From positions 124,001-188,000 of the forward strand of contig VLTN01000057.1 of assembly GCA_008330645.1 (NCBI GenBank): DNA of 64,000 nucleotides. Reading direction: 5' to 3'. Shown one piece after another: positions 1,560-64,000 of the stretch. This DNA is from Cafeteria roenbergensis (taxonomy: Eukaryota; Sar; Bigyra; Bicosoecida; Cafeteriaceae). The notes below the pieces were generated by a model. It worked only from the letters and a program-made list of their open reading frames with translations, ran no database searches and was not told the DNA's origin. The position numbers and the translations under genes are program-made. Position 1 is the stretch's first letter. The number at the start of each line of letters is the position of its first letter.

Positions 1560-3317
1560 TCATGCCGTGGCGCCGCCCATCTGCGCCACCCGCCGCCGCG
1601 CGAGCCGGCCCCTCGCTGCCGCCTGGATGCGAACGGCGCTCTGCCGCTCCGCGTCGCTCGCATCGCTCTCAGCCGCCCGCCCCTGCCGGGCCGCCCCTGC
1701 CGCCGGCCCTCCCGAGGGGACCCCGCCGCGCCGAGTGGCTCTGCCACGTGTCAGCGCCTGGATCTTCGTGGCTGCCGACACCTCCTCAGCGGACGGCGTT
1801 GCGCCTCGGCCCGCCTCGCCGGAGGCCTTGCCGCCGGCTGCCGTGGCAGCCGCTGCAGCGGCACGGGTCACCAGCCCATCAGCTGCCCGTCTCGCGCGGT
1901 CCTCCCCGCTGGCGTCGGCGTCCATACCTGCCAGCACAGCGGCTCTGCCAGACAGCGGCCGCGCCCTGGCGGCGGCGTCTCCCCGCCTCGCGGCCCTGCC
2001 GCGCGCGATGGCCTGAATTTTCACGGCGGCCCTCTCCCGCTCCGCCTCCTCCTGCTGGCGCGCGCGCAGCTCTGCCGCGCGGCGGGCCTCGTCCGCGTGT
2101 TGCAGCTCCACGTCGCCGGCTCGCGCCTGCTCCGCCGCGGCCTCGTCGCCAGCCGCTCGCACGGCAATGCGCTCCCCCCCCGACTGCAGCCCCTGCACCC
2201 GCCGCCGCGCCAGCCGCCCCCGCGCCGCCGCCTGGATATGCAGGGCGGCGCGGGCCTGCTCGTCGGACCACTCTCCCGATGCCGTCGGGTCGGCAGAGCC
2301 GGACTCACTTCGCGCCAGGTACCCTGTCATGCGGACGGCAGACGCGTCCTGCTCGGTCTTGGCGGCAAGCTCTGCCCGCAGGCGGGCGACGCGGAGTCGC
2401 TCGCTGCGCCCGCGGGCGGCCGCTTGGATGCGCGTGGCGCATCGCTCCTCCTCCGACGTCGTGCTGGGAGACGCAGACGTCGCCCGAGCGGACGCCGACG
2501 ACGCTTGCTGCCCCCCCGCCATCGCAGCGCCAGCGGCTGGCCCAGCGGGGGGCCCGGCAGGCCCGCCGGCCGCAGCTCCCGGACCCGCTCCCCCGCCCCC
2601 TCCCCACGGGGCCGAGCTGTGGCATCCGGCAGAGCCATGGGCGGAGCCGGGGGCGGGGGGCAGCCTGGTCTCCTCGAAGGGCTCGATAACGTCGAGCGCG
2701 GCGGCGGCCGCCGCGGCTCTGGCCATGGCCTGAACCGTCCGGAGCACGAGCTTGCGGCACAGCCGGGCCATCTCGGCGTCCGAGTAGACGTACGACTCGT
2801 GCTCAACTGCGAGAGCGTGCGTTGGGATGCGCGTGCGTTGGGAGGCGGTTGCGGGGCGGCCTCGCAAACACCACGGAGTCGGCAGCGTGGCGCAGTGCCA
2901 GTTCGACTGGGGCCCATAGTTGCACCTGCGGCCGGGCTGACTACAGTTTTGAGTTGCAAGCCCGAGTGACGATCGAACGGCAAACTTGCAGCCGTCCGCC
3001 CCTGCCTCATTCGTCGGCGGCGAGGCCACCGCAGGCCCAAAGGGTGCTGGCAGGCCCGCGAGGCGCCTGCAGCTCTCACGTCTGTACTGCGCGGACCAAG
3101 CCTTGCCGTCCGGCTGGCGGCGCATGGCGGCGGTGATGGTGGCGTAGTGCTCTGGCACCGGCTGGTGCGGCGTCGGCTGGCTCCAGCGCATCACAATGGG
3201 CACCACAGCGCCGCCGCTGGTCGCGGGCAGGGGCTTGATGGACACCTTGAGTGGGCCGCGGTCCCACCGCTCGATGTTGGCGCGCAGGGCAGCGACCGCG
3301 GCGCCCGGTCCGTCCAT
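1560..3317 (-). CDS. IQ-motif protein (five calmodulin-binding-type IQ motifs)
   Basis: There are two likely exons, 3317-3080 and 2806-1560, giving 494 residues. The intron of 273 nt starts GTGAGA and ends CTCGCAG. It is a multiple of three with no stop, so an unspliced reading is also open; splicing joins Q-Y-R-L-E-H-E-S-Y-V-Y-S-D smoothly. The first ~130 residues are non-repetitive and unrecognised. The rest is Ala/Arg-rich linker with five IQ motifs of the form IQxxxRGxxxR, for example A-L-H-I-Q-A-A-A-R-G-R-L-A-R-R and A-T-K-I-Q-A-L-T-R-G-R. IQ motifs bind calmodulin or related EF-hand light chains, so a Ca2+-linked scaffold is plausible but unproven. The 3' half carries GGCAGAGCC-type motifs; the first ~690 bases do not. 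Confidence 0.7.
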   Translation of the reverse strand: MDGPGAAVAALRANIERWDRGPLKVSIKPLPATSGGAVVPIVMRWSQPTPHQPVPEHYATITAAMRRQPDGKAWSAQYRRESCRRLAGLPAPFGPAVASPPTNEAGADGCKFAVRSSLGLATQNCSQPGRRCNYGPQSNWHCATLPTPWCLRGRPATASQRTRIPTHALAVEHESYVYSDAEMARLCRKLVLRTVQAMARAAAAAAALDVIEPFEETRLPPAPGSAHGSAGCHSSAPWGGGGGAGPGAAAGGPAGPPAGPAAGAAMAGGQQASSASARATSASPSTTSEEERCATRIQAAARGRSERLRVARLRAELAAKTEQDASAVRMTGYLARSESGSADPTASGEWSDEQARAALHIQAAARGRLARRRVQGLQSGGERIAVRAAGDEAAAEQARAGDVELQHADEARRAAELRARQQEEAERERAAVKIQAIARGRAARRGDAAARARPLSGRAAVLAGMDADASGEDRARRAADGLVTRAAAAAATAAGGKASGEAGRGATPSAEEVSAATKIQALTRGRATRRGGVPSGGPAAGAARQGRAAESDASDAERQSAVRIQAAARGRLARRRVAQMGGATA

Positions 3318-3985
3318 GCTTGCAGCGGCCCTGGGACTGGTCAGAGACTGTCAGAGGGCCTCTGAGGGCGCTCAGGCGTGCGCAGCGTCGACGCGGCACG
3401 CTTGCTGTGACCAAGGAACCGGGCCCGGTGGGCGGCCTGCAGAGTGCGCAACGGCTGCCGCGGGGGCTGGCTTGCTGTTCCCCCTCCCGGCTCGGGTGAG
3501 TTGCGCGCCGCCGGCAGAGCTGTCGCGCTGCTGCAACAGGAACCGCGAGAGCCGTCGCGCGCCCCGACCACGCCGCCCGCGAGCGGCGGCGCACAGCTCC
3601 AGCCTTGCAGAGCGCGAAGTACAGCGGGTTGGCCGAGCAGTCCCGGGCGTCTGGGCCCCCCACACCACCCTGCGGCTCCGGCCCAGCCGGCGTCTGCCGA
3701 GCGTTTCACGCCCGCAAGGCGAGAGAGAGGCCGAGCGGCCCCGTGGTCTGACTCCGACTCCCGCCCTGCATGGCGGGCAGGGCGTGCTTGAGGGGCAGAG
3801 GAAAGTCAAGTTCGCGTTTGTGGCGGGCGTGTGGCGGCAGAGGTCGTGATTTGAAGCGGGGCGGCGCCCGTCGCAAATCGTCGCGAACAAATGGGGCGCC
3901 CTCTGGTAATATTGGCAACTTCAACGAAAACCTGCGCGCGAGACCTCGACGCAGCCACTTGACCGCCAGCAGCTCAGAGCCAGCC
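3318..3985. other. Intergenic region between divergent IQ-motif and ML-domain genes
   Basis: This 668-base stretch separates two divergent start codons and should hold both promoters. I see no convincing coding exon, TATA box or RNA gene. The part closest to the ML gene (about 3840-3960) is less GC-rich, with short runs such as AATATTGG. Confidence 0.5.
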
Positions 3986-4789
3986 ATGCTCCGCGTCGTC
4001 GCCCTCCTCCTCGCCGGTGAGGTATTGCCAGGGCTCGCTATGGCCGCGTGCACAGCCCTGCGGGCCCCTCGTCGGGGCGTCTGGTCGGGAGGGACGCTTG
4101 CGTTTGCATTTGGCTGCCATAGGTTGCCGAGCCGACCCCCCCCCCCGGTGCTGCGCGCCCCGTTCCCCGAGCCGCGCGACCCTCGCAGCCCTCGCCGCAT
4201 CGGTGTCTGCCGCCAGCGGCGGGTCCAACTGCGGCACCGCCGGATACGAGGCCTCGATCTCGACTGTGACGCTCAGCCCGCTTCAGCCCATCAAGGGCCA
4301 GCCCGCGACGCTCAACGCCACTGGCACCCTCAACGCGGCCATCACTGGCGGCGCGGCCACCCTCACCGTTCAGCTCGAGGGCGTGAGTCCGCGCGCCGCG
4401 GCGCTGACGCGCACCGAGCCATGCGCGCCCCGGCTCGCTGCCAACGCTCTCTCGCTGTTCGCGGCTTGTGCGGAATATTGGCCTGCCACGTAACCATGCC
4501 ACCCACGCCTCCGCTGCGCCTGGCTGGCATTGCGCCCGTCCCGCAGGTGAACCTCTTCTCGCACGCCGCCAACACGTGCGGCGCGACCACCATCAACTTC
4601 CCGCTCAACTTCGGCTCTGCCACCATCAACGGCATCGCCTGCCCCGCCTCCGCTGGCGCGTCCATCGCCCCCGGCATGTCCATCGTGCTCCCCGCAGCTG
4701 CGCCCTCCGGCCAGTACACCGTCAAGATCGACTCCCAGGACACCACCTCCAAGGAGGTGTTCTGCATCCAGGCTGACTTCACCCTCTGA
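3986..4789 (+). CDS. Secreted ML (MD-2-related lipid recognition / NPC2-like) domain protein
   Basis: Three exons, 3986-4016, 4189-4382 and 4547-4789, give 155 residues. Exon 1 and the start of exon 2 encode a signal peptide, M-L-R-V-V-A-L-L-L-A-A-L-A-A-S-V-S-A. The mature part begins S-N-C-G-T and shows the small all-beta ML pattern: an N-terminal Cys, G-Q-P-A-T-L-N-A-T-G-T-L-N, A-A-N-T-C-G, then I-A-C-P, P-S-G-Q-Y-T-V-K-I and a Cys near the C-terminus. ML proteins such as NPC2 bind sterols or other lipids in a hydrophobic pocket, in endosomes or outside the cell. Introns of 172 and 164 nt start GTGAG and end CGCAG. The assignment rests on pattern and the signal peptide; the ligand is unknown. 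Confidence 0.78.
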   Translation: MLRVVALLLAGEVLPGLAMAACTALRAPRRGVWSGGTLAFAFGCHRLPSRPPPPVLRAPFPEPRDPRSPRRIGVCRQRRVQLRHRRIRGLDLDCDAQPASAHQGPARDAQRHWHPQRGHHWRRGHPHRSARGRESARRGADAHRAMRAPARCQRSLAVRGLCGILACHVTMPPTPPLRLAGIAPVPQVNLFSHAANTCGATTINFPLNFGSATINGIACPASAGASIAPGMSIVLPAAAPSGQYTVKIDSQDTTSKEVFCIQADFTL

Positions 4790-5181: not shown

Positions 5182-5190
5182 TCACCGCGG
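5103..5190. repeat. Degenerate 22-bp tandem repeat, four units
   Basis: CGCTCA recurs at 5113, 5135, 5157 and 5179, exactly every 22 bases, inside units that read roughly CCGCCACGTCGCTCACCGCA. The array lies where two convergent genes end and slightly overlaps the last codons of the minus-strand gene. Confidence 0.75.
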
Positions 5191-7440
5191 GACGCGCGAC
5201 TGCACGACTGCTGTGGCCCGATTCTCCACGAAACCGCGGGCGGCTCCCCACACAGCCGCTGCCCACGCCGCGTCCTCAACGGACACGGACGAAACCGCGC
5301 CGTCCGAAGCGCCGGCCCCGCCCCCGCCCGGCCACCGAGCGTCCACGGGCGCAACCTCTCGGCAGACCGCCGACTCTGTGTCATATTCCTCACCCAGCGA
5401 GGAGGAGGAGACGTCGCGTCGGCCCAATCCGGCCGATCCGGCAGCGCAGTTGCCGCCGGCTCTGCCCCACCATGGCGGCGGCGACGGGGCCCAGACCAGC
5501 GCGCGACCATTCGCGCCGCCTTCCAGCGACCACGCGGCACGTGAAACCGCTGAGACGACGTCGGCATCCGTTTCCAGCACGGGACGTCGGCCGCCATCAG
5601 ACGGCAGAGCCGCGACGCTGGAGCGGATGGCAGAGCCGACAGCCTGAGCAACTCCTTCCATCACGGCAGAGCAGTGCCCGTCGATCGCTGCGAGTGGGAC
5701 GTCGTCCCGGCAGAGCTGCTCCGGAGCGGTACCAGCGTCTATCATTGTCCAGCTCTGCCAATCAGTTCCTGGCAGAGCTCTGTGTGACGCCGTGACGACG
5801 GAGAGCCAGCGGCGGGTAGCGGCCTTGCGAGGCGCTGCCGGGGCGCTGGCAGGGTCCGCTCTGCCAGTCAGAAGCCAATCACCCGGAAGCAGAGCTGTGA
5901 AGTGCGAGCCGGCACGGCCACCAGCTGCCACCGTAGCGGCAACACCAGCAGCAGCAGCAACATTTCCAGCAGCTCCAGCTGAAGCAGCTGCAGCGCCGCA
6001 CGCCCCGCCGCCGCCACCACCAGCACCGCCACCAGTGGCGCCACTGCCAGCGTCACCAGGGCGGGCCCCGCTTCCGAGTCGCGTGGCCCACAGCCGCGCG
6101 AAACCGCGCATCAGGGCCGTGTCAAAGGCCATCCCTCCCAGCGCGCCCCTCAGCGCCAGCGCCCCAACGACCTCAGCAGGGCCATCGGGCAGAGCCGCAG
6201 CCTCTCCGAGGCTGGGCGCTGTGGACGACCCCAGCTCTGCCAGCAGAGCTGCGCCGTGCGCAGCTGCCGCCGCGGCGGACACTCTCCGAGCAGGCCCGCC
6301 AGCGGTTTCACCCACCGGGCCCTGCCTGATCGCTTCGCCCACGGGCGGCAGCGGGTCCGCGTCTCTCACTGGGCAGACTGCCACTTCGCGCAGCACCTCC
6401 AGCAGTGCGCGGCTCTGCCGCGCCGACGGCACGTATCCCTTGGACGTCGCGGCCGCGAGCCACACCAACATCGGTAGAGCCGGGTGGTAGAGCCCGTCCT
6501 CCATGACGATGACGGGCAACCTCCGGCAGAGCTCCGTGACTCCCCAGGGGCAGACGCTGTCCCCACTGACGTCAGCGGGTCTGCCCCCGCCTGGCCGCTT
6601 GCCGGCCGGCTGTGGTTTCGCCACAATGCGCATGAGCTCTGCCGCGGCTGCAACAGCCCCCCGGGCTCTGCCGCGTCGAACGCACTTCTGGATGATGCTC
6701 TTCAGCTGTGAAGGAGACAGGCAGGTGACCCGCCGCTGCCCCACGACTGACTGGGGACCCCCTCCAGCTCCGCTCGGAACGGACGTCGCGACCGTCACGG
6801 TGGACCCGATCCTTCCGCCGGGGCAGCCGTACTTGGGGCTCGGTTTCACGTCGATACGAGCGGACCACGCGACGGCGGCAGGCGTGTCGGGAGCCGAACC
6901 CTGCGCGCGAAACCGCCAGCGGAACTGGGTCGCCGGCCCGCTCCCGGCTGCATCGGTGGTGGTAGCATCGACGGCAGCCGCAGCAGCGGCGACAGCACAA
7001 ATGGTGGCAGCAGCTGTTGCAGAATCGGTGGTGGCGGCGGTGGCGGTGGCCGCGGATGTGCTGGACGCTGCCACTGGATCTGATGCCACGGGTGCTGGCA
7101 GTGCTGCTTGCGACGCTGTTGGCTGGCTTTGCTCCTGCTCGCGCCGCTGTGGGAGGCGGGAGCCCGACCCTGGAACGGAGGCCGACGCTTCGTCCAGCGT
7201 GAAAAGAACGCGATCGGGCCGTGCAGCCGCCGCTCTCATCATGGTCGCAAATGCTCCAGATACAGCAGGAGGATGCGAGCCTCGGGAAGCAGCAGCAGCA
7301 GTAGCAGCAGCAGCAGGCGCGGAGGCGCGAGTCGGCGCGGAAGCAGTTGCCGAGCGCTTGCCGGCTGCCGCAGGCTTGGAGGCGTCGTCAGGGCGCGGTC
7401 GCTTCGCCGGGCGACGTGCTGCAATGGAAAACGGGTTCAT
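5182..7440 (-). CDS. Conserved-looking protein of unknown function (752 aa)
   Basis: Translation from the ATG at 7440 begins M-N-P-F-S-I-A-A-R-R-P-A-K-R-P-R-P, which is basic and nuclear-localisation-like. A low-complexity Ala/Thr region follows. The most protein-like core is around residues 290-345: V-R-R-G-R-A, E-L-C-R-R-L-P-V-I-V-M-E-D and L-Y-H-P-A-L-P-M-L-V-W-L. It looks like a folded helical domain with an invariant-looking L-P-V-I-x-x-E-D-x-x-x-H-P signature, but I cannot name the family. A second structured region lies near the C-terminus (D-W-L-L-T-G, W-Q-S-W-T-M-I-D). A pyrimidine-rich CAG just after the start leaves open a spliced start further upstream. The gene is dense in GGCAGAGCC-type motifs from 6672 down and is divergent from VPS53, with 113 bases between start codons. 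Confidence 0.65.
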   Translation of the reverse strand: MNPFSIAARRPAKRPRPDDASKPAAAGKRSATASAPTRASAPAAAATAAAASRGSHPPAVSGAFATMMRAAAARPDRVLFTLDEASASVPGSGSRLPQRREQEQSQPTASQAALPAPVASDPVAASSTSAATATAATTDSATAAATICAVAAAAAAVDATTTDAAGSGPATQFRWRFRAQGSAPDTPAAVAWSARIDVKPSPKYGCPGGRIGSTVTVATSVPSGAGGGPQSVVGQRRVTCLSPSQLKSIIQKCVRRGRARGAVAAAAELMRIVAKPQPAGKRPGGGRPADVSGDSVCPWGVTELCRRLPVIVMEDGLYHPALPMLVWLAAATSKGYVPSARQSRALLEVLREVAVCPVRDADPLPPVGEAIRQGPVGETAGGPARRVSAAAAAAHGAALLAELGSSTAPSLGEAAALPDGPAEVVGALALRGALGGMAFDTALMRGFARLWATRLGSGARPGDAGSGATGGGAGGGGGGACGAAAASAGAAGNVAAAAGVAATVAAGGRAGSHFTALLPGDWLLTGRADPASAPAAPRKAATRRWLSVVTASHRALPGTDWQSWTMIDAGTAPEQLCRDDVPLAAIDGHCSAVMEGVAQAVGSAIRSSVAALPSDGGRRPVLETDADVVSAVSRAAWSLEGGANGRALVWAPSPPPWWGRAGGNCAAGSAGLGRRDVSSSSLGEEYDTESAVCREVAPVDARWPGGGGAGASDGAVSSVSVEDAAWAAAVWGAARGFVENRATAVVQSRVPR

Positions 7441-7553
7441 TCTGCGCCGCGACTGCCGTTGTGTCGAGCCCAGAGTGTGCGGGAAGTTGGTTCTGGTGCA
7501 GCTATTGAATGGCATGAGTTGGTGTGCGTCAAAACGGCCAACTAGGGCTTGGA
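7441..7553. promoter_or_regulatory. Short bidirectional promoter region
   Basis: Only 113 bases separate the start codons of the unknown minus-strand gene and VPS53, so both promoters must lie here or inside the genes. AGTTGG occurs at 7485 and 7517 and CCAACT at 7538, three copies of one hexamer counting both strands. No TATA box is visible. Confidence 0.45.
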
Positions 7554-10500
7554 ATGGCGCCAGAGTTGGAGCCAGCAGCTCAGCCAAAGCAGTGGAGGGC
7601 CGCCAAACAAACTGACACCCCCGTGGCGCCAGGAGGCGCGGCGGCGACCGGCCAGTCGCTGCGCGGGCCGCCAATGGCTCTAGCGGCGCTGGAGAACCAC
7701 GCCATTGAGCTGAGCGACGATGTGGAGGAGGTGCTTCGCTTGGTGAGGCAGGCTCCGCCGCAGAACGCCTCGGACTGCCCTTGCGGCGCGGCTTGTGCGC
7801 AGAAAAGCGCGGCCTTTTCTGCCCTGCTTGGGGGCACGAGTCGGAATCGAGCTGCCCGGGTCTCGTGCTGTGCTACGCCGGGCGGAAATGCGCTTGGGAG
7901 GCGCTCAGTTGTTGATTCCGCACGGCTTCAAGCACGCCGATCCGGCAGCGTGGCCGTCCGCGCAGCTGCGTTGCGGCGCGGCTTGAGCCCCCAAGCGCCG
8001 CCGCCCTTCCCCGTGGAGCGGCCCAGCCGGCTCCGCATGCCGTGCCGCCGATGGCGCCGCGCCGTCCCTGCTGCTGGGGCACAGGGAACTTTGCGCTTCC
8101 TGCACGAGTGCTGCTGCATCCGCGTCTGCTTCTGCTGCTTCCGCGTCGACTGTCACTGCCGCCTTGAGCACCCCTTCGACCGAGCTTTTCTCCGCGCAGA
8201 TCGCTGCCAGCCCCGGCAACGACGGCGGGGCCGTGCTGGGCGACCTGGGCCCGGAGTTCCGGCTCATCGAGTCGCGAAGCGGCGCTGCCGCGGCCCGCGC
8301 CGACCCCATGGCGGAGCTGGACGTGGCCGACTTTGACCCGGTCGAGTACCTGAACAAGCACTTTCCGGACGAGGCGTCGCTGGCGGGGGGCCGGCTGGAG
8401 GCCACTCTCAGACAGTGGGACTACGAGGTGCGGCGCCTCGACGAGCAGGCCCTGGACGCGGTCAGGGCGCAGGCAGTGGCCGGGGCCCACGCCGCCAAGG
8501 ACGTCGACCACGCACGCGCCTCTGTGCTAGACCTCTTCGACAAGGTCGGCGAAATTAAACGCCGGGCCGACGACGCCGAGCGCATGGCGGACGAGATTTG
8601 CCGCGACATCAGAGACCTCGACACGGCCAAGACGCACCTCGCATCCACCCTCGCCGGCGTCAAGAACCTCCAGCTGCTCTGCACCTCCGTCGCCCAGCTG
8701 CAGCGCGCCGTGGCCGAGCGCCAGTACGCCGGCGCCGGCCAGCTCCTCTCCCTCGTCAGGCAGCTCATCGGCGTATCGTTTGCCCGGTACCACAAGTCGC
8801 CGGTCATTGCCGCTCTTGCTGATGCCGAAACCGCGGTCAGGTCCCGCCTCCGGGAGCTGATGGCGGAGCAGTTCGAAGTGCTGACAGAGGAAGGATCGGG
8901 GGCGGCGCTGTACGGCTCTGCCGGCGGAACAGGCGGCGGCAGCAGCGGCGGAGCCGATGGGGACGGCGACGGCGACGGCGACGGCGACGTGGACGTGGTT
9001 GTGGGCGCGGACGCGGCCAAGGCGGCGGTGAAACGTTTGGCCGACGCGTGCGAGGTGGTTGACGCGCTGGGAGGGCAGTGCCTGGCAGACCGCGTCGCCG
9101 CGATGGTCAGAAAATTCCTTCGCCCGTACAGCCAGGCCTTTGGCGGGGACAACGCCAAGGGCGACGGGCCGGGCGCGCTGGCCAACGCAGACCGCAGATT
9201 CGCGTGGTTTCGCCGCACCCTGCGGGAGTTTGAGAGCCGGTACGGCCCCGTGCTGCCGTCTCGATGGCAGGTCCCCCGCCGGCTGTGCAACGCGTTCGTC
9301 GATATGACGCGTGCGGACTTTGAAGCGGAGTTGGCAGCCTACGACCCCCCAGACAGCGCCCCCCCGGAGGCCCTCCTCAGGGCCCTGCAGCGGTCTATTG
9401 AGTTCGAGGCGCAGATGGCCAGACGATTCGAGGCGAAACCGCCGTCAGCCGACCAGTCAGCCGACGGCGGGACTGCCTCTGCCTCCTCTGCCGCCGCCGC
9501 CTCCGCCGCCGCCGCTGGTGCCGCCGCCAGTGGGGCCGGTGGAGGCGGGCTGGCGGGAGCGGTGCTGGCAGCGGCATCGGCTGCCGGCCACGACACCTCG
9601 GCGCATCGTTTGGCCGGCGCTGGTGACGACTATGACGACGTCGACGACGACGACGACGGTTCCGCCGCCGACGTCCTCGACGAAAGCGCTCCCCTGGTCA
9701 ACGCCGACGGCGAAGTGGTAGAGCCCATGAGCGCGGAAGGCATCCGGCTCAAGTACCGCCGCAGGAAGGAGTGGGCAGAGCAGGCAGAGCAGCGGAGGCA
9801 GGCACGCGCCGATAAGAAGGCCCGACGACGGTTCCTCAAGCAGCTGGGCGGCTCTGCCGGGGGCGGCGGGGCAGTGCGGGACGTTGGGCTTGACGCCGCG
9901 GGTCTCGGCCTGATGACGGCTCTGCCGGCTCTGCCACCACTGAAGCGTCGGCTGGCGTCTGCCTTCGAGCCCAACATGGGTTCCTATGTGCGGCTGGAGG
10001 CGAGCCGTCTGGATGACGTCATCACCTCGGCGGCGAAGAACCCGGACGCCGACAGCGCTGCCACGTTCGGCGACGAGGACGACGACATGTCCGGCTCTGC
10101 CGGGATGGCTGGCTCTGCCGGGAGTCTTGCTCTGTTCGCGTCGTCGACGCGGCTCTTCGTGCAGCTGCGCGGCGCGGTGGAGCGCTGCTGCCAGCTGTCG
10201 CGGGGTCAGACTCTCTTTGCGGTGTTCAAGGCTTCCCGCTCCGCCCTGGAGCGCTACGCGGCTGTGCTGGAGGGGCGGCTCCCGAAGCCGCAGCGGGGCG
10301 GCTCTGCCCTGGGGGCTCTGCCGGCCAGGACTGAGGCTGACGTGGAGCGTGCTGTGACGTACAGCACGCCTGCGACGATCGACGAGGCGGCCATCGCGAC
10401 GGTCCGGCGGCTCTGCCTGGTGGTGAACACTGCGGAGTTTTGCGGGGAGTCAGCTCCGCAGCTCGCGGAGCTGGTCATCGGCCGAGCGGACGCGGAGTTT

Positions 10501-11385
10501 GCGGAGCACGTCTCCGCCGACGCGATCGAGGACAGGTTCTTCGAGGTGGCCGCTCAGGCTGTGCGCGCGCTGGCGGCATGGACGTGGTCGGCCGTGGACC
10601 GGGACCTCGTGGATATGGTGCGCACGGACTGGTTCCGGGTGGTGGACATCGGCGACCAGTCGCCCTTCGTGGGCTCCATCGATCGAAAGCTCTGCGCCAT
10701 ATTCCCCGTGGTTCGCCAGCTGCTCGGCGGCGGGTACTTCCGCCAGTTCTGCGACCACTTCGTGCGCGGTTTCGCGCACCGTTTCATGTCCGCGCTCTAC
10801 AAGCCGCGGTCCTGCATTGGGGAGGTGGGGGCGCAGCAGCTGCTGCTGGACACACAGACGCTGCGGGTGGTGCTGCTGCAGGCGCCGCTGGCGCTGACGG
10901 AGGAGGAGGCCGACGCTGAGACGCAGCTGCCCCCGGCGCCCTCCAGCTACGTGCGCTTCGTCAAGGCGGAGCTGCCCCGCGCGGAGCTGCTGCTGAAGCT
11001 GGTGGGAACGCCGCCGGAGGCCCTCCCGGCCAATGTGCGCGCCATGTGGCCGCGGGCGTCACGCGCCGACCTGGAGCGGGTCATGACGCTCAAGGGCATG
11101 CCGCGCAAGGCCATGCTCCCGGTGGTGGCAGAGCTGGGACTGGACGGGGCGGCGACCCCGGGGGCAGCCGGGCCGGCGGCTGGCAGGCCCGGAAACCCCT
11201 TCGCGAGCCCGGCGACGCCGGCGGGCGGCGCGGCAGGGGCCGTGGTGGGGGTGCCCCCCTCCGCCGCCGCGGCCGGCGCGGGCATGGGCGCGGCTCTGTC
11301 GGCCATGGGGAAGGGTATCTCCGGCGCGGTGGGCGGTTTCGCCAAGTTCGGCCGCGGCGGAGGCACCCCCACGGGGCGGCCGTAG
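7554..11385 (+). CDS. VPS53: VPS53, subunit of the GARP/EARP tethering complex
   Basis: Exon 1 is 7554-7742 and exon 2 is 8200-11385, giving 1124 residues. The 457-nt intron starts GTGAGG and ends TCCGCGCAG. VPS53 is a core subunit of GARP, which tethers endosome-derived vesicles at the trans-Golgi. The N-terminal rod matches the family: D-F-D-P-V-E-Y-L-N-K-H-F-P-D-E, V-R-R-L-D, E-I-C-R-D-I-R-D-L-D-T-A-K and R-Q-Y-A-G-A. The C-terminal part keeps S-S-Y-V-R-F-V-K and R-A-E-L-L-L-K-L-V-G-T-P, ending in M-T-L-K-G-M-P-R. Relatives usually have 700-850 residues. The excess is low-complexity inserts (Gly/Ser/Asp near 8930-9000, Ala and Asp runs near 9460-9700) and a Gly/Ala tail. GGCTCTGCC motifs first appear at 8914. 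Confidence 0.9.
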
Positions 11386-16670: not shown

Positions 16671-17139
16671 GGTGCAAGATCCCTGGCCCCGAAGACCGAA
16701 AGGACCGCGAACGAAGACAGGTAGGGGCCGGGGGACCGCAGGAGCGGCGAGCCGGGCGGCAGGAGCGGCCGGTGTCTCTGTTGGTTGCCTGTTCGGCACT
16801 CGAGCGCGGCTGCGCCTGACAAGACTGACCCAGTGAGCCGGGCGGGCAAGGCTCTGGCTGCTTGCCAGTAATGCCAGGTCGCTTGACCTGCCTGTGCGGC
16901 ACGCGTGGGGTCGCGCGCGGCGCAAGAGTGCAGCAGGCAGCCACGTGGGATTGCCGCTCGCCGCTCAATGTTTGCAGCACTGCAAACAAACCGTTCGGTT
17001 GCATTCGCGCAGGCGCCCCACAGCGTCGAAATCGAGAGCTGGGCCCTCTCACCCGTTTGCCCCGCAACACAGCGAACTACGGGGGGAGGTGGGGTAGAGG
17101 GCGTGCTCCACCAGCTGCTGGCTGCAGGCGCTGTCGGCA
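16671..17139. other. Intergenic region between divergent ALG12 and the LRR gene
   Basis: About 470 bases should hold both promoters. A GTGAGC at 16833 and CCCGCAG at 17174-17180 could belong to an upstream exon and intron of the LRR gene, but I cannot assemble a convincing one. Nothing else is recognised. Confidence 0.4.
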
Positions 17140-57200: not shown

Positions 57201-60200
57201 GCGCGGTGTTGACAAGGTTGTGATGTGGAGGCAGCGCTGCCGGCTGGAGGCGCGACGCCGAGCGACGCTCGATCGCCAGCTGGCGTTTCTGGTTGGCCAG
57301 GTGGAGCGATACACAGCCATGCTGGCAGAGCCAGGCGGTGACAGCGAAGAAGTGACCGCCGGTGACGTCGTCGGGGACGTCGTTGGTAGCGTCGCCAACA
57401 ATGACGTCGGCAAAGACGTCGGCAAAGACGTCGGCGCTGCTGCTCGCCGCACAGACCCTGGCGAGTCACCCACCCGCGACGCCAGCTCAGACGACGACGA
57501 CGACGCTGCCGCTGCCGCCGGTGACAAAGACGACGATGACGACGACGACGACGGTGACTTTGATGGGGCCATGACAGGTCCCCCGTCCGACGACGAAGAC
57601 ACTCTTCTCGAGGCTGAGCAGGCCGATGCAGATGAAGTGGGGAGCAGCTCTGCAGGCCAGTCGGCAGAGCTGGCGGCACTGGCAGAGGAGGAGACGATGC
57701 CTGTGGAGGCGTTGCTCGCCCGGTACGGCGGCTATATGCCGAGCGCAGGAGCGGTTTCGTCTAGCGGGCGGGACTCGAAGCCGCCGCAAGCGGCCTCAAC
57801 CCGGGCCACTGATGGGGCACTGCCAGACGCGACAGGCGCCGCCACAGGCCCGAAGCCAGCGTCCAAGCCAGCCTCTTCCTCCTCCTCCTCCTCCTCGGCG
57901 TCGTCCTCCTCCTCCTCCTCGTCATTGAGGCCGAATCCGGAGGTTACTGCGTCGTCAGCGTCAGCGTCGGCAGCGCTCGGATCTGCAGCCGAGCCGTCGA
58001 CCTCCCAAGCCTCCACGTCGCTCACTACCTCCACGAAACCGCCTCTTGCCACTCTTCCCCGTCCCGTCGGCCTGTATAAAGTCCGAATTCCGTTTCTGCT
58101 CCGGCGGGGTCACTTGCTCCGGGCATACCAGCGACAGGGCCTTGACTGGCTCGTGAGTCTGCATGACCGCCGTCTGAACGGCATCCTGGCCGACGAGATG
58201 GGTCTCGGGAAGACACTTCAAACGGTTTCGCTTCTCGCCCACCTGGCGGCAGAGCGGTGCATCTGGGGCCCCCACCTGATCGTGGTGCCGACGTCCACGT
58301 TGCTCAACTGGGAGCAGGAGCTGAAGCGGTGGGCGCCCGCCCTCAAGGTGGTCACGTACTACGGGTCGCCGCGGGAACGGCGGCTGAAGCGCCAGGGGTG
58401 GTCCGGGCCAAACAGCATGCACGTCTGCGTCACGTCGTACAGCGTGGTGCTCCAGGACGCAGCCATATTCCGCCGCCGCCGCTGGTACTGCCTCGTGCTT
58501 GACGAGGCACACTTCATCAAGAACTTCCGGTCAAAGCGCTGGCAGACCCTCATTCAGATGCCCGCCCGCCGCCGCCTCCTCCTCACCGGCACGCCGCTCC
58601 AGAACAGCCTCATGGAGCTGTGGGCGCTACTTCACTTCCTTATGCCGCACCTCTTCCGCTCGCAGTCGCAGTTCAAAGAGTGGTTCGACAAGCCCCTCAC
58701 AGGACAAGTCGCAAATGCAACTTCAACTTCAACGACAGGTGCAACCGCAACTACAACTTCAACAGTGACTGCAAGCTCGGGTTCCAGGTCCGCGGGAGCG
58801 TCTGCGGCTGCGGCGGGTGCCAGGGCAGCCGTGCCAGGCCAAACCGCTGGAGGAAGCGGAAGGGGAAGTGGAAGTGGCTCTGCCACCGGCTCTACCGGAG
58901 CGGATCAGGTTCTGGTCGGGCGGCTCCACGCTCTGCTGAGGCCCTTCGTGCTGCGTCGCCTCAAGCGTGAGGTGGCGACGCAGCTGCCTGCCAAGCGCGA
59001 AGTGGCGGTGCTCTGCCGGATGAGCCGACGTCAGCGGGTGCTTTACGAGGACTTTATGAGTCGCTCTGCCACGCGAGCGTCTCTCACTTCGGGCGGTTAC
59101 ATGGGCATGCTTCGGGTGTTGCTCAGCCTGCGAAAGGTGTGCAACCACCCGGACCTGTTCGAGCCCCGCCCAATTGAAGAGCCTTTGGCTCTGCCGGCTC
59201 TACCGATGGCTCTGCCGATGACAGTGCTTGCGCCCGGTTTCGCCATCGTCCAGGGCCTCGCCGCCGGGCCCGGGCCCCCGCCGCGGATTGGGTCCGGGTA
59301 CTGCGGAGTGCCCCTGCAACTCACTTCGCCAAGCAGAGCCGCTGCGGGGTATTCCTCAACTGCAACTGCAACTGCAACTGGTGGGGCATCGCATTCCTCG
59401 CTCACCCACGCGCAGGCGGGTGGTGGAGCCAACGCCGGCGGTTTCGCGGGAGGGGCTGCCAGCTCAATTCGCGTGCCTGGTATCGGCATCGGTCACGGGT
59501 TGATCAGCAGTGTGTCACGGGCCGATCACGGATGTGGTCCACGGAGCAGCGTCGTGTCGCTTCGTGCAGCCATCGTGAGCCCTTCCAGCGTCGGTCAGTG
59601 GATGGTCACGAACGCTTCCAGCGACGATGCGACTTCCAAGGGCAACTGCAACCGCAGCGACTCCGTGCAGGGGCAACGCCCCGGTGCTTCGTTCCGCGCC
59701 AGGCAGGTGACCCTTCTCACAGGGCAGGACGCCGCGGGAGAGTGGCCGCGGCTGTCTGTGGCGGAACACTCGCCCGCAGCGCACGCCACTGCCAGATACG
59801 CCTGCGAAACCGCCGAACGTGCCGGGGCGCTCCTCAGACCCCGAGCTGGAGTTGGAGGCGGATGCGGAGGCGGATGCGGAGTTGGATGCGGAGTTGGATG
59901 CGGGTCGTCGACGCGGCGCGCAGGCGCCACAGGCGCCACAGGCCGGCTGAGCCGAACGGTCCCCTCCGCCGCGGCAGCAGCGGCAGCGGCGGCCCCCTGG
60001 GTGGACAGCGTGGCGCAGGGCGTTGCCCTGTCCCGGCTAGGCCTGGGGACCACCACCCTGCTGGTGCAGAGGGGCCCCCGACTGAGCGACGCGCTGGCAG
60101 CTGACGGCATCACTGCCGCGTCACAGGCTTGGCTCGGAGGAGTCGGCTCTGCAAAGTCTGCGTTGGACGGCGCGCTGCGCGCGGCAGAGCCCGGATATCC

Positions 60201-63200
60201 GGCCGCCAGTGGCCTCCCAGCGGCCCTACGCGCCCGCATGCTCGTGGTGGTGGCGGCAGCGGCGGCGGCGGGCGGAGACGCCACCGGGGCGGAGGCGGCG
60301 AGACAGGCAGCGGCAGAGGCCTTCGTCGGCTCGCAAGAGTGGCAGGCAGCCTACGCAAGCTCCAACGCCTCGGCGACGTCGGCAGCGACGTCGGCAGCGG
60401 CGGAGGTGCCGAGTCAGACCACGACGTCGTCAGCTGCCGGAGCGGGCTCTGCCGGCTCTGCTCAGCGGGAAGCGCCGGCTGATGCGCAGGAGATGGCGGC
60501 TGCGCGTGCGGCGGTTTCGCGGTGGGAAACTCCGCTTGCCACTCTGTCTGCGGCGGGAATTTCGTCCGCGGCAGCGGCAGCAGCTTCAGCTGAAAGTGCG
60601 ACTTCAGCTTCAACTTCAACTTCAACCTCTGCAACAGCAACCGCGGCAGCGACCTCGTCGGTTGCTGGCTTGCTGGCAGCCGTTGCCGCTGAGGCGGCCG
60701 CCACGCCTGTGCTGGCCCTCCGTCGGGCATGCGAGCTGTCAGCTGACAGTCAGCTGACTCCGCGTGTTGCGGAGTTTATCATCCGCACGCTCTGCCAGGA
60801 GACGTCGGCAGGGTCGGGGGAGGTTTCCTTCGCGGGGCACACGCAGGCATGGATGCTTGCCCTCGGAGTCACTCATGCAACGGCTCTTTTCAAGCGGTGG
60901 ATCAGCCGCAGGCAGTCGCAACGGCGCTGCGCCGTGGAGTCGATCGTTCGCTGGTCAGCTGACAGGGCATGTCCGTTGCACGCTGATACGGTGGAAATGT
61001 GCTGGCGACTCGCCGGTGCTGGAGGCGGTGAAACCGCTGCTAGCACCGGCACCGCCGCGGCAGTGCGTGCGCAAGTCAACGCAGACGCAGAGCTTGGGTA
61101 CGGCTCTGCCGCATCCGTTGCCCCGCTGGGACCCATCAGCTACCCATCAACTTTCGAAGTGAAGTGGAGACTTGATAATCTCGGCTCTGCCGGTAGAGCC
61201 CTCATCGGATCGGTTCCGGCTTGGCTGCAGCCGGGTCGCTGGCACGAGCCGTCGGCAGTGGGGCGAATGCTGTCCGCTGTCCGACGCCCGGGCTCTGCCG
61301 GCAGAGCTGCGGCTCGAGAGGATGAGTTGCTCTGCAGCGCGGCCAACGGTGGTGCTGCTGGCGGCGGCTGCGGAGCCGGTGGTGGTGGTGGTCACGGCGG
61401 CACTGGGTGCCACGGCTTGGCTCACAGTGGTGGTGGCGGCCACGGCTTGGCTCACAGTAGTGGTGGCGGCCACGGCTTGGCTCACAGTGGTGGTGGCGGC
61501 CACAGGGACACGCGGCCGTCGTCGTGGCGACCCCGGCATGCGGTTTCGCGGGCAGGGGGCCGGAGTCGAAGTGGCTCTGCCAGCAACCTGCACGAGTCGG
61601 GTTCGTCCTGGAGCTCTGTCAGCGGCGGGCTGCGTCACGATGTTGGTCGTGGTCGCTGGCGGGGTCGCTGCCGTGATCCAGTTGAGGCTCGGCATGCTGG
61701 AGCGGCTCTACCGGACGCTGTTGACGTCCCAACAGGGCTCTGCCGCAGGATGGAAGATGCTGACTTGCCACCCCTGGTCGTGTCACCGGCCCAACGATTG
61801 GCCGAAGCCGCTTCTGTTTCGCGGGTGTTTTCGGCCAAGTCGGTTCGAGCCGTTGCAGCGTCACCTGCCCTGGACATCACCGGCGCATCAACGCCCAGTC
61901 ATGGCCAGGTCCATTGCGAAACCGTTGCTCGTGCTGCTGCGGCGTCGCTCCTGGCCGATGGCCACGAGATACGGTCAGCGCAGCGGCTGAAGTTGCCGGG
62001 GCGGAGTTTGGTGGAGTCAGACTCCGGCAAGCTGCAGGCACTGGCAGGCATTCTGCGCGAGCGCCTGGCCACGGGCAACCGCTGCCTGATATTTACCCAA
62101 ATGTCAAGAATGCTCGACGTGCTAGAGACGTGGCTCAACGTGCACGGGTGGGCGTATCTCCGCCTGGACGGCGCCACGCCGGTGTCGGCCCGTCAGCAAA
62201 TGATGGACCGGTTCAACGGCGACGACAGCATCCCCGTGTTCATCCTTTCAACGCGCGCCGGCGGCCTGGGTATCAACCTCACGGGCGCAAGCACCGTCGT
62301 GTTCTACGACAGCGACTGGAACCCGGCCATGGACGCTCAGGCGCAGGACCGCGCCCACCGCATCGGCCAGACGCGAGAGGTGGTCGTCTACCGCCTTGTG
62401 ACGGCGGGATCCGTGGAGGAGGCCATTCTCCACAAGGCAGCGCAGAAGAAACGCCTCGTCGGCCTATCTATTGACCGGGGACAGTTCGGAGGCAGGGAGG
62501 CTAGGTCCGCTGAAACTGGTTCCGCAACTTCAACTTCAACTTCAACTTCAACTTCAACTGCAGCCGCGTCGGCTGGTGGCGCTGGCGGAGGATCCGCAGC
62601 CAACGCCGGCTCGTCAGTCGACGAAACCGCAGCAGAGCCGACAGCGGCTTCGTCGATCATGGGAAGGAGCGAGCTGGCCAGCCTGCTGGGAGTGGATCCG
62701 GGCTCTGCCACCGACGCCGACGTCGACGACACCGTGACGGCCGATGCGCTGGCCGCTGCGGAGGACGACGAAGATGCTGCTGCCGGCAGAGCCGCCGCTG
62801 CAGAGGCCGCGGCAGAGCTTGGGGAGTTTGGGGACGTCGAACAGACTTCAACGGCTCCTCAGCCCAAGGCACGGGCGGTTTCGTCAACTGGGCGAGGTGC
62901 TACAGCCGCGTCCAAGTCAACGCGCTTCCGCGAAACCGCGTCGACGTCGCGTCGGTCGGGTCCGTCGCAGTCGCCAACCGGCACAGAGGCGTCCTACACC
63001 CCAGGCGCCGGGTCTGGCGACGACGACGCTGACGGCGGCGACGGCGGCGGCGGTGCGGGAGCGACGGCTGACGATGGCGGCGATGCCGACCACGACCACG
63101 AAGACTACGGCGGTGACGACGACGGTGACGACGACGGTGACGACGGTGACGACGACGGTGACGACGACGGTGACGACGGTGACGACGCCACCGCCGCTGC

Positions 63201-64000
63201 GGCTGCTGCTGCTGCTGCTGCGGCGGAGGCGGAGGCGGAGTCACGTCTTGACCGGCTCTTGACGGAGGCCCCGGATGACGACGACTTCGACGAAGCGTCC
63301 CAACAACAGCAGAGCCAGCGGCAGAGCCAGGGTGGCGCCACTGCCACTCATGCCTCCTCCTCCTCCTCCTCCTCGTCGTCCTCGTCGTCCTCCGCCGCAG
63401 ATGCCGGCTCTGCCGGTTCAACGGCCGCAAACGTTCTCGGAAGCTTCTCCGGGGACGGCAGAGCTGTGGTTGGGTCAGACGCCATCGCCTCAACGGCTGA
63501 GCGACGTCTCCAAACGGCAGAGCGGCGGTTTCGCGAGGTCGCATCGCGCCTGCGGCCGATGGAGCGACGCGGTATCGACTACCGTCAGACGGTCCGACCT
63601 CACCCAGCGGTTTCGCCAGACGTGATTGCGGCCGCGGAGGCTGCGTTTGAGGTGAGTGAACAGTCGTGGAAGAACGATCAGCTGATCGCGGAGCGTGAGG
63701 AGGCGGAGGCGGAGGCGGAGGCTGATGCGGAGCTGATGCTGCTGCGACAGGTCTCGTCGTCAGCCACCGACTCTGCCGGGGTCGACGGAGGCGTCGCAGC
63801 GGCGGAACGGCTCTACCGCGAGCGACTTCGGCTGTTGCGGGGTCAAAAGATGTGTCGTGAGCTGGACGGCTCTGCTTGGAGAGTGGTTGAGCGACGCGGT
63901 CGTCGCCGGGGTGCCGGGTGGGAGGTCGCGTGGGGCTGGACCAACATCGACACAGCGGAGTCACTGCCGCTGGGCAGGTGGCCTGTGCGCGTTCGCGCTT
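54244..64000 (+). CDS. SWR1: SWR1/SRCAP-type SNF2 chromatin remodelling ATPase (3' end beyond window)
   Basis: The frame is open from the ATG at 54244 to the window edge, 3252 codons. SWR1-type enzymes exchange H2A-H2B for H2A.Z-H2B in nucleosomes. Order of parts: low-complexity N-terminus; an acidic module (residues ~275-369); an HSA domain for actin/Arp binding (~912-1022, W-L-S-A-D-Y-S-E-E-R-R-W-K); a second copy of the acidic module (~1095-1190); and ATPase lobe 1 (~1285-1660). Lobe 1 has D-E-M-G-L-G-K-T at 58192, D-E-A-H at 58501 and R-K-V-C-N-H-P-D-L-F. After an insert of ~940 residues comes lobe 2 (~2589-2746) with L-I-F-T-Q-M-S, R-L-D-G-A-T, G-L-G-I-N-L-T and R-A-H-R-I-G-Q-T. The HSA domain plus the huge inter-lobe insert point to the SWR1/SRCAP/p400 group. 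A further insert of ~65 residues sits inside lobe 1 (58700-58900). Confidence 0.92.
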   Translation, partial: MDAFLASFGAAAKQQNASPARAVVKRPAAAAAPTPPQAASLAQPAVASTASCAPATARRPAQPRPDAGPSAGRTRRQPARDEAAAAPAAPKAPPRVPTIASSGGPAGGAGTGAETGAVSAAGAASAAAAGAAAAASSAAGNDDAPARRTRSARAAPSAAATSTRATSASSSSSSSSTHAPPAGDGPVMDAAPARLAQGERRRRRRAALPAAPAAGLADDRGRDDARAGGAARQQGASGGGAGAGGGGRGGGRADAAAGDDDDAAAAAASGDDDDDDDDDDDDDGDFDGAMTGPPSDDEDTLLEAEQADADEVGSSSACQSAELAALAEEETMPVEALLARYGGYTPSAGAVSSSGRDSKPPQAASTRASDAADAAAQPPAEGPRRQAADIPEGSNGSTLMAELVADVRTSRAESRAVAASSRANARRSMKRPRTETSDPAEPILPTSQPQLQPQPQLTSSSSSSSSSSAAPAAAAAAAAAAPPALRLAGQSATAAASSGPSFGQSSGHVELRATSLVQIGGRTAIALRPPTAKEDAAAVKSIQAATATEVAASSALALVVRRAGVVARLTELDADRDVTGLFFLGPAEPPSTSAGSKRAGSGSKSAKPRTPTATSATGAATATSTANGAARPWKPADYAGRWVRGGRSLLPTVPPVWVTGWELSVAPRPLFRAVSGVPSQRRATLLDTEPMEVDRAPVVTVGAVAVPTSPTAEQSRETAGAPVSDDTVEYWAPFIDPSVYDDDGGVAVAAARQSRRDEALRRAIVPLSPAEASAAQSTTAPPTPTSAAGAGDPGSARETAVSPSVTTVNARGRRARRLANQQRVLAQGSDAGPTLPRQASADAAVTGSAGAERSGVPSTAASGSAGAGERSGSVRRSWDPSLRETAAASAARLMEGAPPHTMLQPGPLEPPRNRSHWDLLLDEMAWLSADYSEERRWKDRQRKQLCQDVVAYWRAQETRNLRAARQAEARRRRRAALLAQEATRWWRGVDKVVMWRQRCRLEARRRATLDRQLAFLVGQVERYTAMLAEPGGDSEEVTAGDVVGDVVGSVANNDVGKDVGKDVGAAARRTDPGESPTRDASSDDDDDAAAAAGDKDDDDDDDDGDFDGAMTGPPSDDEDTLLEAEQADADEVGSSSAGQSAELAALAEEETMPVEALLARYGGYMPSAGAVSSSGRDSKPPQAASTRATDGALPDATGAATGPKPASKPASSSSSSSSASSSSSSSSLRPNPEVTASSASASAALGSAAEPSTSQASTSLTTSTKPPLATLPRPVGLYKVRIPFLLRRGHLLRAYQRQGLDWLVSLHDRRLNGILADEMGLGKTLQTVSLLAHLAAERCIWGPHLIVVPTSTLLNWEQELKRWAPALKVVTYYGSPRERRLKRQGWSGPNSMHVCVTSYSVVLQDAAIFRRRRWYCLVLDEAHFIKNFRSKRWQTLIQMPARRRLLLTGTPLQNSLMELWALLHFLMPHLFRSQSQFKEWFDKPLTGQVANATSTSTTGATATTTSTVTASSGSRSAGASAAAAGARAAVPGQTAGGSGRGSGSGSATGSTGADQVLVGRLHALLRPFVLRRLKREVATQLPAKREVAVLCRMSRRQRVLYEDFMSRSATRASLTSGGYMGMLRVLLSLRKVCNHPDLFEPRPIEEPLALPALPMALPMTVLAPGFAIVQGLAAGPGPPPRIGSGYCGVPLQLTSPSRAAAGYSSTATATATGGASHSSLTHAQAGGGANAGGFAGGAASSIRVPGIGIGHGLISSVSRADHGCGPRSSVVSLRAAIVSPSSVGQWMVTNASSDDATSKGNCNRSDSVQGQRPGASFRARQVTLLTGQDAAGEWPRLSVAEHSPAAHATARYACETAERAGALLRPRAGVGGGCGGGCGVGCGVGCGSSTRRAGATGATGRLSRTVPSAAAAAAAAAPWVDSVAQGVALSRLGLGTTTLLVQRGPRLSDALAADGITAASQAWLGGVGSAKSALDGALRAAEPGYPAASGLPAALRARMLVVVAAAAAAGGDATGAEAARQAAAEAFVGSQEWQAAYASSNASATSAATSAAAEVPSQTTTSSAAGAGSAGSAQREAPADAQEMAAARAAVSRWETPLATLSAAGISSAAAAAASAESATSASTSTSTSATATAAATSSVAGLLAAVAAEAAATPVLALRRACELSADSQLTPRVAEFIIRTLCQETSAGSGEVSFAGHTQAWMLALGVTHATALFKRWISRRQSQRRCAVESIVRWSADRACPLHADTVEMCWRLAGAGGGETAASTGTAAAVRAQVNADAELGYGSAASVAPLGPISYPSTFEVKWRLDNLGSAGRALIGSVPAWLQPGRWHEPSAVGRMLSAVRRPGSAGRAAAREDELLCSAANGGAAGGGCGAGGGGGHGGTGCHGLAHSGGGGHGLAHSSGGGHGLAHSGGGGHRDTRPSSWRPRHAVSRAGGRSRSGSASNLHESGSSWSSVSGGLRHDVGRGRWRGRCRDPVEARHAGAALPDAVDVPTGLCRRMEDADLPPLVVSPAQRLAEAASVSRVFSAKSVRAVAASPALDITGASTPSHGQVHCETVARAAAASLLADGHEIRSAQRLKLPGRSLVESDSGKLQALAGILRERLATGNRCLIFTQMSRMLDVLETWLNVHGWAYLRLDGATPVSARQQMMDRFNGDDSIPVFILSTRAGGLGINLTGASTVVFYDSDWNPAMDAQAQDRAHRIGQTREVVVYRLVTAGSVEEAILHKAAQKKRLVGLSIDRGQFGGREARSAETGSATSTSTSTSTSTAAASAGGAGGGSAANAGSSVDETAAEPTAASSIMGRSELASLLGVDPGSATDADVDDTVTADALAAAEDDEDAAAGRAAAAEAAAELGEFGDVEQTSTAPQPKARAVSSTGRGATAASKSTRFRETASTSRRSGPSQSPTGTEASYTPGAGSGDDDADGGDGGGGAGATADDGGDADHDHEDYGGDDDGDDDGDDGDDDGDDDGDDGDDATAAAAAAAAAAAEAEAESRLDRLLTEAPDDDDFDEASQQQQSQRQSQGGATATHASSSSSSSSSSSSSAADAGSAGSTAANVLGSFSGDGRAVVGSDAIASTAERRLQTAERRFREVASRLRPMERRGIDYRQTVRPHPAVSPDVIAAAEAAFEVSEQSWKNDQLIAEREEAEAEAEADAELMLLRQVSSSATDSAGVDGGVAAAERLYRERLRLLRGQKMCRELDGSAWRVVERRGRRRGAGWEVAWGWTNIDTAESLPLGRWPVRVRA
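55070..55352 (+). repeat. Acidic module copy 1 (direct repeat, partner at 57530)
   Basis: This 283-base segment matches 57530-57812 at a fixed offset of 2460 bases (820 codons), with only about five mismatches, and keeps frame. It encodes D-D-G-D-F-D-G-A-M-T, P-S-D-D-E-D-T-L-L-E-A-E and E-E-E-T-M-P-V-E-A-L-L, matching the acidic segment that SWR1/SRCAP proteins carry between HSA and ATPase. Confidence 0.95.
57530..57812 (+). repeat. Acidic module copy 2 (direct repeat, partner at 55070)
   Basis: This is the copy in the canonical position between the HSA domain and the ATPase. The substitutions relative to copy 1 include GAT to GAC, GCATGCC to GCAGGCC and TATACG to TATATG. Identity ends abruptly on both sides. 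Confidence 0.95.
61417..61506 (+). repeat. 30-bp coding tandem repeat, three units
   Basis: Three 30-base units starting CACGGCTTGGCTCACAGT encode H-G-L-A-H-S-G-G-G-G within the inter-lobe insert of the SWR1-type protein. One unit differs by one base (S for G). Confidence 0.92.
63104..63190 (+). repeat. GGTGACGAC-type array encoding an Asp/Gly tract
   Basis: Units GGTGACGAC and GGTGACGACGAC alternate for nearly 90 bases and encode D-D-G-D-D-D-G-D-D-G C-terminal to the ATPase. Acidic tails are common in histone-handling proteins, but this one is plain low complexity. Confidence 0.88.

Follow-up and report, generated by a model that had tools for sequence, protein, structure and literature searches.

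The window analyzed here is the whole 64,000-nucleotide stretch of Cafeteria roenbergensis contig VLTN01000057.1 (assembly GCA_008330645.1, positions 124,001 to 188,000 of the forward strand). It has a guanine-plus-cytosine (GC) content of 69%, carries long open reading frames (ORFs) on alternating strands, and reads, to judge from its letters, as a nuclear segment of a eukaryote. Gene bodies in this window carry at least two highly iterated nine-base words that act as a property of double-stranded DNA. Word A is GGCAGAGCC on one strand and GGCTCTGCC on the other, and word B is CGAAACCGC, often found as GCGAAACCGC. The excess of both words lies far beyond what protein sequence and codon usage account for, and both are nearly confined to ORFs.

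Genes were modeled as plain ORFs, either beginning with ATG, GTG, or TTG or running from stop to stop, so some non-coding DNA may be included at their 5′ ends. Of 104 word copies in nine ORFs (the SWR1-type gene was left out), 1 lies in the first tenth. The ten ORFs of the first shuffle test described below are open throughout and lie on alternating strands, and the stop is TGA in eight of the nine that end inside the window. The ORFs with words and the two copies of word A outside ORFs are given here; the sign after each start is the strand of that copy.

1560..3317, minus strand: IQ-motif gene (Pfam IQ); word A starts at 1737-, 1941-, 2292+, 2628+
3770..4789, plus strand: ML-domain gene (Pfam E1_DerP2_DerF2); word A starts at 4613-
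5182..7674, minus strand: ORF without a Pfam family; word A starts at 5458-, 5603+, 5629+, 6188+, 6411-, 6664-; word B at 5229+, 5290+, 6099+, 6908+
8164..11385, plus strand: VPS53 gene (Pfam Vps53_N); word A starts at 8914, 9850, 9918, 9927, 10093, 10111, 10300, 10314, 10409, all -; word B at 8826+, 9434+, 10766-, 11333-
14052..16925, minus strand: GT22 mannosyltransferase gene (Pfam Glyco_transf_22, PDB 9s6t); word A starts at 14401, 15267, 15316, 15352, 15471, 15517, 15571, 15934, 16299, all +; word B at 14256+, 14672-, 16120-
17140..22236, plus strand: leucine-rich-repeat gene (Pfam LRR_6); word A starts at 17854+, 18021+, 18444-, 18637-, 18812+, 19257-, 20928-, 21181-, 21270+, 21367+; word B at 17577+, 19439+, 20562+, 21590-
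29926..36090, minus strand: TBC (RabGAP) gene (Pfam RabGAP-TBC); 14 copies of word A from 30233 to 34138; word B at 30826+, 31039+, 31654-, 32808+, 34187+, 34301-, 34412-
37222..44274, plus strand: ORF of 2350 residues (Pfam TPR-S below the cut-off only); 14 copies of word A from 38305 to 44125; word B at 38083+, 38473-, 38886+, 39182-, 40406-, 41968+, 43768-
45277..46302, minus strand: ORF with a C-terminal hydrophobic segment, SNARE-like by eye (no significant Pfam match); word A starts at 45898+, 45913+; word B at 45791-, 46069+
46712..47830, plus strand: type 1 methionine aminopeptidase (MetAP1) gene (Pfam Peptidase_M24); one word A, start 46784+
50917..53844, minus strand: PH-domain gene (Pfam PH); word A starts at 50936+, 51478+, 52364-, 52687+, 52703+; word B at 51751+, 51919+, 52220-
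54223..63999, plus strand: SWR1/SRCAP-type remodeller gene, which runs off the window (PDB SRCAP and SWR1); 20 copies of word A from 55560 to 63406; word B at 55291-, 56391+, 56892+, 56977+, 57751-, 58034+, 59438-, 59805+, 60511-, 61540-, 62622+, 62875-, 62931+, 63525-, 63607-
36333..36341, plus strand: single word A in non-ORF DNA, roughly 240 bp upstream of the TBC ORF
53918..53926, minus strand: single word A in non-ORF DNA, roughly 75 bp upstream of the PH ORF

The GT22 mannosyltransferase is presumably of the ALG12 type, judging from its conserved peptides. ARAGORN and Rfam (gathering scores) found no matches on the window, a near-match search of 54223-62000 against a plasmid collection found none, and VPS53 had no match among PDB sequences.

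Word A is present in 97 exact copies, 47 on the plus strand and 50 on the minus strand, against 3.3 expected from trinucleotide composition (order-2 Markov model). This excess of approximately 30-fold gives it the top z-score among 9-mers, and its density of 1516 per Mb is 53.7-fold over the nucleotide-frequency expectation. A preliminary description of this DNA had reported that word A recurs beyond expectation in gene bodies, which these counts bear out. Each of the eleven coordinates it listed holds a copy, with two off by one (17854 for 17853 and 55560 for 55559), and its figure of about 15 sites from 5600 to 6700 holds once 13 sites of the 8-mer core and two GGTAGAGCC variants (6473 and 6486) are counted together. 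It overlooked word B and the near-absence of word A outside ORFs.

Written more widely, word A is YGGYAGAGCYR; aligned core copies share the nonamer and one or two weaker flanking bases, with nothing beyond. Its one-mismatch forms number 142 against 45.6 expected, and most of this excess falls at the ends of the word and in the change of C3 to T. The commonest deviations are GGCAGAGCT (32 against 1.4), AGCAGAGCC (17 against 1.4), and the C3-to-T form GGTAGAGCC (12 against 0.1), and GGCAGAGCA, TGCAGAGCC, and GGCAGAGCG show a lesser excess. When positions 1 and 9 and the C3-to-T change are set aside, 49 forms remain against 35.1 expected. The tolerance is asymmetric, with G7 to A at 1 against 0.9 where C3 to T stands at the 12 given above.

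Word B is present in 49 copies against 1.1 expected from trinucleotide composition, an approximately 45-fold excess, and its density of 766 per Mb is 60.4-fold over the nucleotide-frequency expectation. It resembles word A in that it occurs in both orientations, in all frames, and in ORFs only, and it is not palindromic. Its one-mismatch forms number 38 against 18.4 expected, chiefly TGAAACCGC (10 against 0.4), and 18 against 14.7 when positions 1, 8, and 9 are set aside.

The excess persists against 500 shuffles in which neither the proteins nor the codon counts of any gene are altered. In ten ORFs (42.4 kb) picked by domain hits and length, word A was observed 92 times (shuffle mean 5.56, maximum 14) and word B 47 times (shuffle mean 2.25, maximum 7). 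A repeat free of this choice gave the same picture: across all 15 ORFs defined in the window, word A stands at 95 against 5.9 (maximum 13) and word B at 49 against 2.52 (maximum 7), and across the nine ORFs with a Pfam match, word A stands at 73 against 4.24 (maximum 10) and word B at 36 against 1.84. When all 9-mers are ranked against 200 synonymous shuffles, word A is first and word B comes next after an overlapping form of A. Together, word A (including its 8-mer core) and word B cover 44 of 159 TCT codons and 22 of 95 AGA codons.

Within the ten ORFs, word A uses all six frame and orientation classes (forward 14, 7, and 10; reverse 34, 3, and 24), and the class with 3 copies has only 5 permitted sites, defined as places where synonymous recoding could yield the word. 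Word B also uses all six classes, with 21 forward and 26 reverse copies. The earlier statement that word A is not driven by protein is supported by these checks: neither of the two refuting conditions set for it, counts at shuffle level and restriction to one codon frame, holds here. Both orientations of word A occur inside seven of the ten ORFs; the accompanying claim of both orientations within single genes holds for these and fails for VPS53 and the mannosyltransferase gene, each with 9 of 9 copies in a single orientation, and for the ML gene, which has a single copy.

Word A was also described as scattered through gene bodies, and 95 of its 97 copies indeed fall within the 15 ORFs. Outside the ten ORFs (21.6 kb) there are five copies of A and two of B. 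Five further ORFs were recognized post hoc from translations or Pfam, and two of these hold three of the five A copies and both B copies. The DNA outside all 15 ORFs (13.96 kb) contains two copies of A where composition predicts 0.58, and no B where it predicts 0.22. Such scarcity in non-ORF DNA requires some link, be it to genes, to transcription, or to the age of the sequence.

A large share of permitted sites is realized in the ten ORFs: 92 of 185 for word A and 47 of 76 for word B. In conserved stretches (matched by Pfam or PDB, 1441 of 14129 residues), word A occupies 8 of 9 permitted sites where codon usage predicts 0.4, and word B occupies 2 of 2. In the linkers, which are the remaining sequence, the shares are 84 of 176 for word A (4.8 expected) and 45 of 74 for word B (2.1 expected), and the contrast between domains and linkers for word A has P = 0.018. 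Where the protein is conserved in this window, the words are used through synonymous choice. Word A encodes SALPRA in the mannosyltransferase, a peptide that is identical and ungapped in PDB 9s6t, and two more of its sites lie within the ungapped LYSALPHKE and FPALP region of the same alignment. The ungapped alignment at one conserved peptide indicates that word A was reached there by substitution and not by insertion. Where the protein is free, word A adds residues: the peptide A-L-P is found 42 times (24 word-coded) where 13.6 are expected, and G-S-A 67 times (34 word-coded) where 30.8 are expected.

Among the closest known systems are HIP1 (GCGATCGC) and the alternate HIPs of cyanobacteria. 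According to PMC4390886, HIP1 reaches 300 to 2700 per Mb and a 55- to 228-fold excess in most cyanobacteria outside group C1, with deviations that favor the ends of the word. The likeness to HIP1 drawn in the preliminary description extends to density, since words A and B both lie within the HIP1 range, and to excess, with B inside that range and A just below its lower bound. Both systems consist of exact GC-rich words, nine bases long here and eight there; the deviations of A are also commonest at the word ends, and the frame- and strand-independent presence in coding DNA is found for A and B alike. The likeness stops at the palindrome, because neither A nor B is one. The host is a eukaryote with VPS53, SWR1/SRCAP-type, TBC, and MetAP1 genes, not a cyanobacterium, and two unrelated words stand side by side, almost absent outside ORFs and with no known methyltransferase. 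As the words are not palindromes and the host is not cyanobacterial, they are not classed as HIP but would be HIP-like in working.

Three other known signals were compared. DNA uptake sequences of Neisseriaceae and Pasteurellaceae, for which molecular drive has been proposed (PMC1939737), are likewise short over-represented words. They differ from the present case, which has two words nearly confined to genes and no record of natural uptake. Chi sites of bacteria, which stimulate recombination, are short, asymmetric, GC-rich, and scattered in coding DNA. In E. coli K12, Chi occurs 1008 times against 151 expected (PMC1939737, Table 6), an excess far less extreme than that of A or B. Chi is biased in orientation along the direction of replication; in this 64-kb window word A shows no bias between the plus and minus strands as such (47 and 50 copies). 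The periodic An/Tn cluster (PATC) signal of Caenorhabditis germline genes is AT-rich, periodic at approximately 10 bp, and mainly intronic. It is also a gene-linked, DNA-level sequence signal in a eukaryote, whereas the words here are exact, GC-rich, and located in coding DNA, with no period of 10 to 10.5 bp. Table 7 of PMC1939737 gives over-represented oligonucleotides from eukaryotes, one being GCAGCGCCC, with 1022 copies against 13 on chromosome V of C. elegans and no known function, and thus word excess alone is not new in eukaryotes.

Among the papers listed by a literature search, with most subscription papers and all bioRxiv preprints outside its coverage, none deals with a eukaryotic counterpart of HIP1 to judge by title and abstract opening, and within the same coverage none of the four nine-base strings appeared as a stand-alone word. 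The literature so covered also gave no case of a nucleus with words that are confined to genes, set codon choice, and reach HIP1 density. Pattern scans for two close copies of word A gave 41 loci and at least 120 loci in viral contigs and at least 118 in genome contigs, at least 279 in all; these loci were selected for close copies and are not a survey of genomes. In the ten inspected of the 15 densest, the copies form mostly short-period arrays, or else extended palindromes (L054, L156) or loose one-strand runs (L244, L072). Among the 279 listed, three have two or more copies of word B, each with two of word A.

The best explanation, and one we lean toward by a little, is that words A and B are a HIP1-like, gene-linked signal in double-stranded DNA that depends on a recognizing factor and biased fixation. 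A putative sequence-specific DNA-binding or DNA-modifying factor would recognize both words, and biased repair, conversion, or selection linked to genes would draw permitted sites to the exact word and hold them there. The process would resemble that of cyanobacterial HIP1 with linkage to genes added. The high share of realized permitted sites, which is highest in domains, and the mild clustering of word A fit a biased process as well as they fit selection. The fuller proposal is more tentative and falls somewhat short of an even call: that a eukaryotic nucleus holds a HIP1-class system in which a factor draws two exact words into a large share of permitted gene-body sites, in either orientation, where they set codon choice, add amino acids, and mark a class of genes against other DNA. 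A eukaryotic counterpart of HIP1 with two words nearly confined to genes, if true, would provide an independent case in which to study the roles of transcription, chromatin, and repair. It would also mean that a force at the DNA level can be strong enough to mold proteins, with a bearing on work on codon usage and protein evolution in GC-rich protists.

Several points weigh against a HIP1-like signal. It rests on one 64-kb window, and no factor, modification, or phenotype is tied to the words. The ten ORFs were chosen after the word counts of 28 candidate ORFs had been seen, and ORF 26024-28855, which has neither word and is longer than one of the ten, was omitted from them. ORFs 26024-28975, 22447-24111 (whose status as a gene is unsure), and 49353-50240 hold neither word in 5.5 kb. 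The full word A could fit at few sites in these three (1, 6, and 2), and none is realized (0 of 9). For the 8-mer core the three realize 0 of 23 permitted sites, where the ten ORFs realize 142 of 325 (P = 7e-6). That comparison is biased, since the words give rise to permitted sites of their own and so raise the ten-ORF figure; against shuffles, the absence of the core from the three ORFs is not unusual (0.84 expected). The signal thus belongs to genes without extending to every ORF. Of the eight domain sites of word A, two (SWR1-type residues 1655 and 1662) are at the trailing edge of the SNF2 stretch, and without them the share is 6 of 7 and the domain/linker contrast falls to P = 0.064. Permitted sites one step from word A are not depleted (35 against 33.1 expected; 10 against 15.3 for B), so a ratchet that uses up neighbors is not supported. 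Relatives of VPS53 and of the mannosyltransferase sought in a viral contig collection were not found there.

An argument from missing neighbors was considered and dropped. GGCCGAGCC (0 against 6.2) and GAGACCGC (0 against 6.8) are both among the 12 most depleted words, but their depletion is weak (z approximately -2.5) and stands behind that of unrelated words such as GCGGCCGC (13 against 32.3).

The main rival, unlikely in our judgment and still the one to be taken most seriously, is that the words are a functionless by-product of a context-dependent bias in mutation, repair, or gene conversion that acts on long-lived or transcribed DNA. Word A is not evenly spaced, as a by-product would allow: it is mildly clustered, with 27 neighbor gaps below 100 bp against 16.8 expected and nearest copies 9 to 26 bp apart. 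Word B is not clustered (4 such gaps against 4.8 expected). The degree of saturation also tracks presumed sequence age, from the domains through the linkers to non-ORF DNA near background. PMC4390886 shows function against repair by-product still under discussion for HIP1 itself and sets the by-product reading beside two arguments for function. Two unrelated nine-base words are nevertheless much to ask of bare mutational context, and non-ORF DNA should carry them unless its turnover is fast or the bias depends on transcription. The intact stock of one-step neighbors at permitted sites of word A speaks against a by-product as well. Nucleosome phasing was examined and rejected, with a mean cosine of pair distances of -0.02 to -0.05 at periods 10, 10.25, 10.5, and 147; the value is near 0 at periods 165 and 180 and 0.12 at 200.

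An RNA-level signal, such as a splicing enhancer, an RNA-binding site, or an mRNA hairpin, is improbable. Such a signal would match the near-confinement to ORFs and the sense-strand bias toward GGCTCTGCC, which occurs 61 times against 31 for GGCAGAGCC (raw P = 0.002). The bias mostly follows what the proteins can accommodate, as realization per permitted site is 31 of 74 forward and 61 of 111 reverse (P = 0.10). Copies in a gene share orientation somewhat, 49 against 40.8 under cross-gene permutation (P = 0.044, weak), whereas within-gene permutation shows no orientation clustering (P = 0.37) and word B is divided almost equally between orientations. Exonic splicing enhancers, which act in one orientation near exon ends, were rejected, as both orientations are seen and ORFs are open for up to 9.8 kb; the ten ORFs, open throughout, have no introns inside them for an enhancer to serve. 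Word A is no more than a quasi-palindrome, and its AGA centre is fixed. Double changes that preserve the hairpin are hardly enriched (at best 4 against 0.8), and loops other than AGA/TCT in GGCNNNGCC are not comparable, the next best at 9 against 5.0. On these two results the hairpin or RNA-structure reading was rejected.

Repeated insertion of a very small mobile or duplicated element would leave identical copies of 9 to 11 bp in both orientations, as observed, and yet is very improbable. Flank similarity ends after about one base; pairwise identity over 30 flanking bases averages 8.96 against 8.59 at random positions, and 3 pairs reach 18 or more against 4. The conserved mannosyltransferase peptide shows no gap, and the word lies in all frames within ORFs. 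Codon usage, peptide repeats, or low-complexity protein can be set aside almost entirely: Ala, Gly, and Ser abound in the proteins, and G-S-A and A-L-P are over-represented, but the excess of these peptides is largely of word-coded copies, only 4 of the 97 copies of word A lie in tandem arrays, and the synonymous shuffles refute this reading for the window.

The SWR1/SRCAP-type gene contains an internal duplication (55017-55358 and 57492-57818, 92.7% identical), with one copy before the HSA domain and the other between the HSA and SNF2 domains. It accounts for the word B pair at 55291 and 57751. As a before-and-after test it says little, with the B site and the GGCAGAGCT variant kept in both copies.

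ORF 26024-28975 (minus strand) has a lower GC content (63%) and no Pfam match in addition to lacking both words. By eye, its product looks like a surface protein, in which ELW-type repeats occur together with a hydrophobic segment and a repeat tail rich in Ser, Pro, and Thr. A minisatellite at 12998-14016, between the VPS53 and mannosyltransferase genes, consists of 44 copies of the 23-bp unit CCGCCCTGTCACCGCTGCAGCCG.

Further words are also present. CAACTGCAAC, found in short runs of a CAACTG unit, occurs 28 times where synonymous shuffles give 0.9, and never outside the word-bearing ORFs (for example at 30607, 41495, 55874, and 59360), and the related CTGCAACTG is present in both orientations. 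Weaker words are concentrated in the word-bearing ORFs, which make up 70% of the window: CGACGTCG (25 of 26 copies), TCAGCTGA (12 of 14), and CGAAGTG (36 of 39). GATCCTTCC and TGACGTCA lie wholly within them, with 7 of 7 copies each.

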